From positions 1-40,962 of the IMG/VR virus record IMGVR_UViG_3300030102_001222: a stretch of 40,962 bases of DNA. One strand, written 5' to 3'. Numbering within the stretch: position 1 is the first letter of the stretch; each line of letters begins with the position of its first letter. Positions 24,719-40,852 of this stretch are shown here, piece after piece. The position numbers were made by a program, and so were the translations under genes. The notes beneath the pieces are model-generated. The model ran no database searches. It was not told the origin of the DNA and was given only the letters and a program-made list of their open reading frames with translations. This stretch comes from a virus.

Positions 24719-24740
24719 AATTACTTTTATTTAAGTGAGA

Positions 24741-24766
24741 CAGGGGGGCAAGGGCAAACCCCCCTG
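24741..24766 (-). terminator. Hairpin after the capsid gene (late terminator candidate)
   Basis: An 8-bp perfect stem (CAGGGGGG with CCCCCCTG) surrounds a 10-nt loop about 50 nt downstream of the capsid stop. T7 has its phage-polymerase terminator at this point, just after gene 10. There is no clear U-run behind it, so the call leans on position and stem strength. Confidence 0.55.
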
Positions 24767-24771
24767 AGAGG

Positions 24772-24804
24772 TAGAGTAGCCAGAGGGAGATTATAGCTAC
24801 TCTA
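24772..24804 (-). terminator. First hairpin after the capsid gene
   Basis: A perfect 9-bp stem (TAGAGTAGC with GCTACTCTA) with a 15-nt loop lies only 8 nt after the capsid stop and is followed at once by the G/C-rich hairpin at 24741-24766. The pair may act together to reduce read-through or protect the capsid mRNA 3' end. Confidence 0.5.
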
Positions 24805-24812
24805 AGGGAACA

Positions 24813-38430: not shown

Positions 38431-38728
38431 AATCATCTCTTTCTGCTTGTTGTATTTGTAATTCTTCTTTCTTATCATAAATCATCTGTACACAAGCAGA
38501 ATAACCAGCAAGATCAACCAAGTTATCTTCTTTATGTCTATATATTTCTCTGGCTATTTTCATACCAGCTAACATAAGTGCAACCTTCTCAGGTGCTACT
38601 GGATCTGTATCTAGTATTACACCCCAAATAATTCCTATTCTTTCACAGTTTTCCAATGGGTGATCATAAGCCCATTGTCTGTCACCATTAACTAGTCTTT
38701 CTGCTTGTTTATTTACTGATTCTTTCAT
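38381..38728 (-). CDS. DUF6378-like protein
   Basis: 115 aa from ATG 38728; a TTG two codons earlier is possible. The sequence 'AERLVNGDRQWAYDHPLENCERIGIIWG...PEKVALMLAGMKIAREIYRHKEDNLVDLAGYSACVQMI' matches the phage pattern 'R---yGd----h---f-ria-lW-----------vAlmma-lKiaR-------dn-vDlaGYa'. This family has an all-helical, MazG-like look and is common in tailed phages, often near nucleotide metabolism genes. The activity is not established. It overlaps both neighbouring genes. Confidence 0.7.
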   Translation of the reverse strand: MKESVNKQAERLVNGDRQWAYDHPLENCERIGIIWGVILDTDPVAPEKVALMLAGMKIAREIYRHKEDNLVDLAGYSACVQMIYDKKEELQIQQAERDDYDRNFKPAVYEETTIG

Positions 38729-39002
38729 CCCCAATTTTAATTCTATCTATTTTATGTTTTTTATATAATGCTCGTTTTTCTTTTCCTTCTTTTTCTCTTT
38801 CTTTCCAATAAGGATCATTTATATATCTAGGGTCACCATCTACATATCCTAGTACCACGTTAAATTCATTTTGTAGATCATGAATCCAATCTTGTAGGAG
38901 ATTTAATTTTAGTAAATCTTTTTGACTTCTAAAATCATCAGACCATTTAATACTTCCGTAATCTTCATTAAATAGTAATGTTACTGCTTCGTATCTAGAC
39001 AT
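38709..39002 (-). CDS. Unrecognised early protein
   Basis: 97 aa: aromatic and charged, with 'LLFNEDYGSIKWSDDFRSQKDLLKLNLLQDWIHDLQNEFNVVLG' in the first half and a Lys-rich C-terminal helix. The ATG follows a good ribosome binding site (GAGAGGATGAT). It is the first gene after the 80-nt structured element, whose 3' arm ends 26 nt before this start. I recognise no family. Confidence 0.5.
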   Translation of the reverse strand: MSRYEAVTLLFNEDYGSIKWSDDFRSQKDLLKLNLLQDWIHDLQNEFNVVLGYVDGDPRYINDPYWKEREKEGKEKRALYKKHKIDRIKIGDERISK

Positions 39003-39027
39003 ATCATCCTCTCAAAAAATTAAAATT

Positions 39028-39107
39028 AATGGGCAAGGTAAAGCTCCACACTTTATTCATTTAAGCCCAACCTATGCATTGTTAAGTTAAATAGATCCTT
39101 GCCCATT
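39028..39107 (-). ncRNA. Structured RNA element with three-way junction
   Basis: On the transcribed (minus) strand, 80 nt fold into three helices. Helix 1 closes the element with 11 perfect pairs (AATGGGCAAGG at the 5' end with CCTTGCCCATT at the 3' end). Helix 2 pairs ATTTAA with TTAAAT and CTTAAC with GTTGGG, 12 pairs with one bulged C and a 9-nt loop. Helix 3 is TAAAG with CTTTA around a 7-nt loop, stacked directly on helix 1. Junction strands are ATCT and GAA. Two G-U pairs in helix 2 would be C-A mismatches on the other strand, so the structure favours minus-strand RNA. It starts right after one gene's stop and is followed by a U-rich tract, so it may be a terminator, a processing or stability element, or a new regulatory RNA. 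Confidence 0.65.
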
Positions 39108-39527
39108 TCATACTGCTTCGTAGTACAAAGCAGTTAAATCTTTCATAAATTGTTTGTCATACTTTGCTACTTGATTTGCTGGTACAAACTTATGTTTAAT
39201 CTCACCATCTACTAATATTTCTACTCTCTTTTGACCTTTGTTCTTTGGTGGTCTACCTATACAAGCCTTGAGGTGGTTTTCTCTTCTCTTCTTTTCACTC
39301 TTTCTCATCCTTTTGTATACATAGGGGTCTTGCTCTTTTTTAAGACACCCACATGACTTTGTATTTAGAGAATTAACTGCTTGCTGGTATAACTTTTTAT
39401 AGTTGCCACAACTACACTTATATAAGTTTATTCTGCTACCATTCTTATCTCTATGAGAGAACCTTACACAAGTAAGTCTACTACCAGCTACACGACCAGT
39501 TAGTTGACCAGTATCATTAGGATGCAC
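39108..39527 (-). CDS. Zinc-binding, AP2/HNH-type DNA-binding-like protein
   Basis: 139 aa. A GTG start at 39527 has a spaced AGG ribosome binding site. 'GQLTGRVAGSRLTCVRFSHRDKNGSRINLYKCSCGNYKKLYQQAVNSLNTKSCGCLKKE' matches the zinc-binding N-terminal region of many AP2- or HNH-type homing endonucleases, with Cys38, Cys40, Cys59 and Cys61. The C-terminal part is basic and lacks a visible HNH motif, so cleavage activity is doubtful. It could be a relic or a DNA-binding regulator. Confidence 0.65.
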   Translation of the reverse strand: MHPNDTGQLTGRVAGSRLTCVRFSHRDKNGSRINLYKCSCGNYKKLYQQAVNSLNTKSCGCLKKEQDPYVYKRMRKSEKKRRENHLKACIGRPPKNKGQKRVEILVDGEIKHKFVPANQVAKYDKQFMKDLTALYYEAV

Positions 39528-40161: not shown

Positions 40162-40177
40162 TTGGGAATTAGAGAGA

Positions 40178-40202
40178 GAGGGGTGCGTGAGAAACACCCC
40201 TC
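40178..40202 (-). terminator. Hairpin terminator after the integrase gene
   Basis: An 8-bp perfect stem (GAGGGGTG with CACCCCTC, 9-nt loop) lies 7 nt after the integrase stop and is followed by TCTCTCT. It would isolate integrase transcription from the early operon. Confidence 0.6.
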
Positions 40203-40208
40203 AACTTC

Positions 40209-40784
40209 CTACATTATGTTAAGTGCTTCCGCTTTATTCAAAGCATCTTCTGCACTAATATTTAAATAAAGAGAAGTAGAAGCAACATTAGAATGACCTA
40301 ATAGTTGTCTACACGTTTCTATATCCCTAGTTTTACCATATACAATACTAGGTTTGGTCCTACGTAAGCTATGACTAGAGTATAGTTCCCAATCTAATCC
40401 TGCTCTGTAGGCTATTTCTTTTACTATATTCCGATACATCTTATCACTAAGAGGTTTCAGGTTACCCAGCTTGTCCGTTGCTCTGCTTGGGAACAAGGGA
40501 TCATTACTTTCTAGTTTTCGGGTTCTCACCCATCGATCTACCAGTTCCATAGTGAACTCTGATAGTCTACATGAAACTCGTCTACTTGTTTTCTTTTGTT
40601 TGATCTCTAAGTTCTTGCGAACTCTACCATGAGAATCAACTAAATCTTTTACCCTAAGATTTATTAAATCAACACATCTGAGACAAGTATCAACATGAAC
40701 ACAAAATAAAAGTTGGTTTCTACCATGCAGGTTAGATCGGATAGCAAGGATCTGGTCCTGTGTAAAAGGGAGTTTTTGAGGCAT
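40209..40784 (-). CDS. int: Tyrosine recombinase / integrase, catalytic domain only
   Basis: 191 aa. The full catalytic set is visible: Arg36 (TCLRCVDLINL), Lys64 or Lys65 (KQKKTSRRV), His138 and Arg141 (SHSLRRTK), His164 (LLGHSNV) and Tyr173 (STSLYL). The protein starts directly in the catalytic domain, without the usual arm-binding and core-binding domains. An in-frame TAG three codons before the ATG rules out a longer version. Its size is like the FimB/FimE invertases. It should integrate or invert DNA; its place beside the early genes matches integrative T7-like marine phages. Confidence 0.9.
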   Translation of the reverse strand: MPQKLPFTQDQILAIRSNLHGRNQLLFCVHVDTCLRCVDLINLRVKDLVDSHGRVRKNLEIKQKKTSRRVSCRLSEFTMELVDRWVRTRKLESNDPLFPSRATDKLGNLKPLSDKMYRNIVKEIAYRAGLDWELYSSHSLRRTKPSIVYGKTRDIETCRQLLGHSNVASTSLYLNISAEDALNKAEALNIM

Positions 40785-40852
40785 TTTCTTGAGCTAGTTG
40801 AGAGATTAGAGAGAATAAATAGTTTTCGGGGAGAAGTTTTCGGGGTGGAGGA

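Follow-up and report, generated by a model that had tools for sequence, protein, structure and literature searches.

The RNase III sites of phage T7 are the textbook case of punctuation in phage mRNA. Processing of the T7 early mRNA by RNase III has been described, and site R1.1 is cut by an alphaproteobacterial enzyme (PMC4858673, PMC6121014). In phage LUZ100, a leaky terminator lies between the integrase and the RNA polymerase genes (PMC10134795).

We analyzed a window of 40,962 nucleotides, the whole stretch of DNA under study, from an IMG/VR virus record whose main genes are all on the minus strand. Judged from its sequence, the source record is a T7-like phage, whose RNA polymerase and capsid are similar to their counterparts in Rhizobium, Pelagibacter and Roseobacter phages and in LUZ100, the nearest isolates. 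Between the integrase gene (40209-40784) on one side and the RNA polymerase gene (PF00940; 35636-38128) on the other is an early region of small genes, within which we found an 80-nt structured element, with DUF6378 and RNA polymerase genes downstream of it (Table 1). The stop codon TGA (39108-39110) of an upstream 139-aa gene, for which there was no Pfam match, abuts the element, which begins at the next base, as a reading of the sequence alone had pointed out. From the end of its closing stem, P1, to the next ATG there are 26 nt in the window and 14 nt in the related contig L086. A 12-bp direct repeat, TACGAAGCAGTA, flanks the element on the minus strand (about 38983-38995 and 39112-39125), one copy lying where the 139-aa gene ends and the other where the 97-aa gene begins; in the outgroup L088 the first copy is missing and the 139-aa homologue is longer.

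Table 1. Positions of the element, its parts and neighboring features in the window.
Feature	Position	Strand	Basis or remark
Three-way-junction element, whole	39028..39107	-	MFE, z; homologues in 5 further IMG/VR contigs
P1 5' arm, AATGGGCAAGG	39097..39107	-	pairs with 39028-39038; outermost base varies in L085 only
P2 bulged hairpin, loop AATGCATAG	39058..39093	-	allele MFEs; 5' strand differs between alleles, uncompensated
P3 hairpin, TAAAGTGTGGAGCTTTA, abuts P1 3' arm	39039..39055	-	invariant 6/6; exact search: these phages only
P1 3' arm, CCTTGCCCATT	39028..39038	-	invariant 6/6
U-rich spacer 3' of P1	39014..39027	-	reads TTAATTTTAATTTTTT in window; not kept in relatives
Presumed ribosome-binding site GAGAGG, outside fold	39008..39013	-	sequence
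Upstream 139-aa gene, Cys/KSCGCL motif	39108..39527	-	weak phrog_374 (HNH endonuclease), E 2.7e-13
Downstream 97-aa orphan gene	38709..39002	-	in relatives other small genes instead, or absent
Leader module after integrase	40166..40202	-	
Hairpin of this leader module	40178..40202	-	

On the minus, transcribed strand (39107-39028) the element folds into a three-way junction with an MFE of -26.2 kcal/mol and a z of -3.81; none of 200 shuffled versions was as stable. P1 has 11 Watson-Crick pairs and no mismatch, exactly the perfect closing stem that the sequence-only reading had proposed. The two hairpins that it placed inside, of 12 bp with a bulge and of 5 bp, are both present but slightly longer: P2 has 13 pairs, one bulged C and a 9-nt loop, and P3 has 6 pairs (5 plus one U-G) with the loop GUGGA and no linker to P1. 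The minus-strand order is AATGGGCAAGG ATC TATTTAACTTAAC AATGCATAG GTTGGGCTTAAATG AA TAAAGTGTGGAGCTTTA CCTTGCCCATT. The opposite strand folds more weakly (-17.5, z -1.8), and the same asymmetry was seen in all three alleles of the element (minus -26.2/-25.2/-25.9 versus opposite -17.5/-20.3/-19.4), bearing out the proposal that G-U pairs favor the transcribed strand. As the fold is strand-asymmetric, RNA is favored over DNA as the functional level.

Nowhere else in the 41,455 bases of the record is there a perfect stem as long as P1 (11 bp or more, spanning up to about 120 nt), and a first-order random genome contains on average 0.1 such stems with 6 or more G/C. An energy of -26 or lower was reached by 13 of 2045 minus-strand 80-nt windows, placing the element in the extreme tail without making it unique; it stands out because of its intergenic placement and conservation, beyond fold energy. 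Pairing of AUCUAU with AUAGGU, two invariant strands, would give an alternative P2' helix; this was rejected, as it is 1.7 to 5.6 kcal/mol less stable and accounts for no more than 10% of the population. So was a short peptide beginning ATGGGCAAGG... or ATGAAATGG..., the frames of which, translated by hand, differ among the three alleles (17, 16 and 11 codons for the first). A tRNA search found none.

Pattern, protein and RNA-model searches converged on the same seven related IMG/VR contigs, an identical set to the RNA polymerase relatives, which numbered seven contigs only. The element is present in five of them (L083, L084, L085, L086 and L087) and thus, with the window, in six of eight. The close relative L089 keeps only a remnant, TATGGGCAACG, that breaks within a P1 arm, and the outgroup L088, with an RNA polymerase 79% identical, has no element, its longer 139-aa homologue running directly into the 97-aa gene. 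The element is dispensable, since L089 lost it and L088 lacks it. Allele A, in the window and L083, is followed by the 97-aa gene; allele B is followed by an 82-aa orphan in L084 and directly by the DUF6378 gene in L086; downstream of allele C, in L085 and L087, lies a gene of 59/67 aa related to the 97-aa gene. The 139-aa gene is always upstream, while the downstream gene is swapped between relatives, and the pairing of alleles (L084 with L086, L085 with L087) is at odds with RNA polymerase relationships. An extra 82-aa gene sits between the 89-aa and 139-aa genes in L086 and L089, and early junctions are hot spots for turnover of small genes.

An inverted-repeat pattern scan of IMG/VR returned 26 stretches, of which only 5 had the interior sequence in common; the others were unrelated or chance matches, and L008/L018 and L011 scored no higher than the element itself does when read on the wrong strand. 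Searches with P3 and loop patterns gave nothing beyond the same 5 contigs, a search of species genomes gave 0 hits, and known phage records held no DNA match, the Vibrio hits being 19-nt chance matches. There were no second copies elsewhere in the searched genomes and no copy in three further contigs with the leader module described below. No Rfam family (riboswitches, hammerheads, tRNA-like and others) matched the window at gathering score, in line with the earlier impression that the hammerhead and the purine and glutamine riboswitch cores are not matched, and when a 351-nt stretch containing the element was searched by E-value, the best hits were chance matches far below gathering scores. 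The element is real, strand-specific, constrained and undescribed in the sources searched, and it is confined to one narrow group of uncultured T7-related viruses.

Two of the three same-allele pairs are identical and the third differs at one base, 1 change in all against about 36 expected at the third-codon-position rate of the neighboring 139-aa gene (11-18% differing). Over 81 nt L084 and L086 have the same sequence, whereas third positions of synonymous codons in their RNA polymerase genes agree at 77% only. Local recombination could have contributed to this identity; the final 50 bases of the neighboring gene do differ in the B pair and in the C pair. Between alleles, every change falls within the P2 hairpin or its loop; P3 and the junction of P1 with P2 do not vary, nor does P1 apart from one outermost base in L085, and the unpaired stretches AUCUAUUU, GCAUAGG and GAAUAAAGUGUGGAGC are invariant in all six phages. 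Among the four distinct sequences, in which P1 and P3 are nearly invariant, there were 0 two-sided compensatory changes, and the changes in P2 keep fold stability no better than random mutation does. The comparison thus establishes that the sequence of the element is conserved, but not that the pairing of P2 is.

In four relatives (G001-G004), most gene junctions of the early region to the left of the integrase, as well as the junction directly after it, have a 9-12-bp hairpin that runs straight into YTCTCTAATTCTC, then a ribosome-binding site and an ATG. There are about 7 such sites per genome in the clade, with a hairpin sequence that differs from site to site, and a scan with the pattern found 7 IMG/VR contigs, 4 of them already in our set. 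This leader module is a candidate promoter, processing or leader motif. Downstream of the integrase the stem reads GAGGGGTGT/GCACCCCTC in seven phages versus GGGGCAAGT/GCTTGCCCC in L088, with 4 of 9 pairs changed on both sides, in a compensatory way, by a hand count from the alignment, and among the same seven phages this hairpin is as invariant as the element. The three-way junction shares a strong stem, short spacer, ribosome-binding site and ATG with these simple hairpins but has two extra arms and lacks their conserved pyrimidine-rich YTCTCTAATTCTC tail, and it is the most elaborate fold among the early-junction structures of the clade, which appears to rely on stable RNA hairpins to punctuate the genes of its early region. 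Elsewhere on the minus strand, a copy of TCTCTCTAATCTCTCAACT with no strong hairpin lies just upstream of the integrase gene (40785-40815), and a strong hairpin, CAGGGGGGTTTGCCCTTGCCCCCCTG, follows the probable major capsid gene (24721-24812), in the position of the late terminator of T7; L088 has the same post-capsid hairpin, then TCTCTCTAATA.

As an illustrative comparison with T7 we used R-site positions attributed to Dunn and Studier. Gene coordinates came from V01146, and a sixth position, "R0.7?", folded poorly and was left out. At these positions, five T7 early R sites form irregular hairpins with energies between -20 and -26 kcal/mol, and in four of the five the next ATG is 27-35 nt away. 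Like the element, R0.3, R0.5, R1, R1.1 and R1.3 are intercistronic, follow a stop codon and precede an ATG by about 14-35 nt, and they also share a similar folding energy and an early-region location in a T7-like phage. The sequence layout puts the element where an RNase III-type site is placed: between cistrons, before a ribosome-binding site, in a T7-like early region. Each T7 site, in contrast to the multibranch three-way junction, is one irregular hairpin, and the T7 sites have a sequence of their own in common. Compared with an irregular RNase III stem of about 20 bp, P1 (11 bp) and P3 (6 bp) would amount to about 17 bp if stacked, with P2 separate.

We tentatively favor, at a little below an even chance, the reading that the element is an intercistronic processing or mRNA-stabilizing punctuation working like the T7 R sites, because its layout (stop, strong fold, AU-rich spacer, free ribosome-binding site) resembles that of the T7 early sites and because a hairpin stands in front of a ribosome-binding site at the majority of early junctions in the clade. 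A generic punctuation role also suits an element that is constrained while its downstream gene is swapped. The element would lie within an early polycistronic transcript, between a stop codon and the next ribosome-binding site; the strong fold would set the two messages apart, because an endonuclease cuts there, because a stable hairpin shields the ends, or both, and the ribosome-binding site would remain free outside it. Fold, strand, position, conservation and the exposed ribosome-binding site are properties of the locus itself, from which we infer transcription across the element, cleavage or protection, and the enzyme. The sequence-only reading had listed a nuclease-resistant element among its options, which is compatible with these results and favored by the layout. 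The multibranch architecture, the only ~17 bp of stacked P1/P3, the missing YTCTCTAATTCTC tail and the dispensability seen in L089 and L088 count against this reading, and as cleavage is only predicted, we do not class the element as an RNase III site.

The invariant unpaired stretches in all six phages, the single change where some 36 were expected and the constant presence of the 139-aa gene, whose Cys-rich product is a suggested binder, would fit a specific regulatory RNA, an operator or aptamer in which a protein or small ligand binds the invariant P3, junction and loop nucleotides and tunes the flanking genes. We nevertheless consider this unlikely. Invariance need not mean a specific ligand, because the simple integrase-downstream hairpin is equally invariant. 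The riboswitch combination of aptamer, expression platform and consistent regulated genes was not found: the ribosome-binding site is outside the fold, no terminator is conserved, the downstream genes differ and the clade is very narrow. An undescribed regulatory RNA, with loops bound by a phage factor (perhaps the Cys-rich protein) or a host factor and controlling the hand-over from integrase and early genes to RNA polymerase, appears slightly less likely again. Of the earlier suggestion of an undescribed regulatory RNA, the part that stands is an undescribed, conserved, strand-specific element between early genes (no Rfam match, six phages, constrained).

We regard it as improbable that the element acts at the DNA level, as an inverted repeat or a mobile or recombination boundary for the swapping of downstream genes, with an incidental RNA fold. 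It does coincide with a breakpoint, after which different genes follow, and the discordant allele pairing, the break of L089 in a P1 arm and the flanking TACGAAGCAGTA repeat in the window would agree with such a role. However, G-U pairs let only the transcribed strand fold well, there are no copies elsewhere in the searched genomes, and no consistent target duplication is seen.

Hardly different in probability is a terminator or attenuator in the early region. LUZ100 provides a precedent between integrase and RNA polymerase (PMC10134795), with its T4 structure likewise between an integrase and the RNA polymerase behind it in a T7-like phage, and the GC-rich stem is followed in the window by TTAATTTTAATTTTTT, the U-rich tract noticed at the outset. 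That tract is not conserved, which disfavors termination: in L085 and L087 it is weakened, and in L086, which reads CCTTGCCCATTACAAAGGAATAAATG, it is gone, with the fold unchanged throughout. In place of the short-loop GC stem and conserved U-tract of an intrinsic terminator, P1 encloses a 58-nt multibranch; a terminator scan did not list the element, and the location of the DUF6378 and RNA polymerase genes downstream likewise disfavors the early terminator proposed from the sequence. T4, annotated as an intrinsic terminator, directly follows the integrase of LUZ100, and the separate hairpin just after the integrase in the window is its better counterpart. Least probable is a functionless stable fold kept by shared descent in a young clade, which would accord with the lack of two-sided compensation, the P2 fold being kept no better than by random mutation, the mere remnant in L089 and the absence from L088, but not with far fewer changes than at neighboring third codon positions, including the L084-L086 identity over 81 nt.

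The element is narrow in distribution, so its broad impact is moderate, and the leader module of hairpin and YTCTCTAATTCTC is possibly more interesting than the three-way junction. An integrase-bearing T7-like clade from environmental samples, with hairpins at most early junctions and a three-way junction at one, would be a natural test of the generality of mRNA punctuation outside coliphages, and of whether structure, sequence or both are selected.
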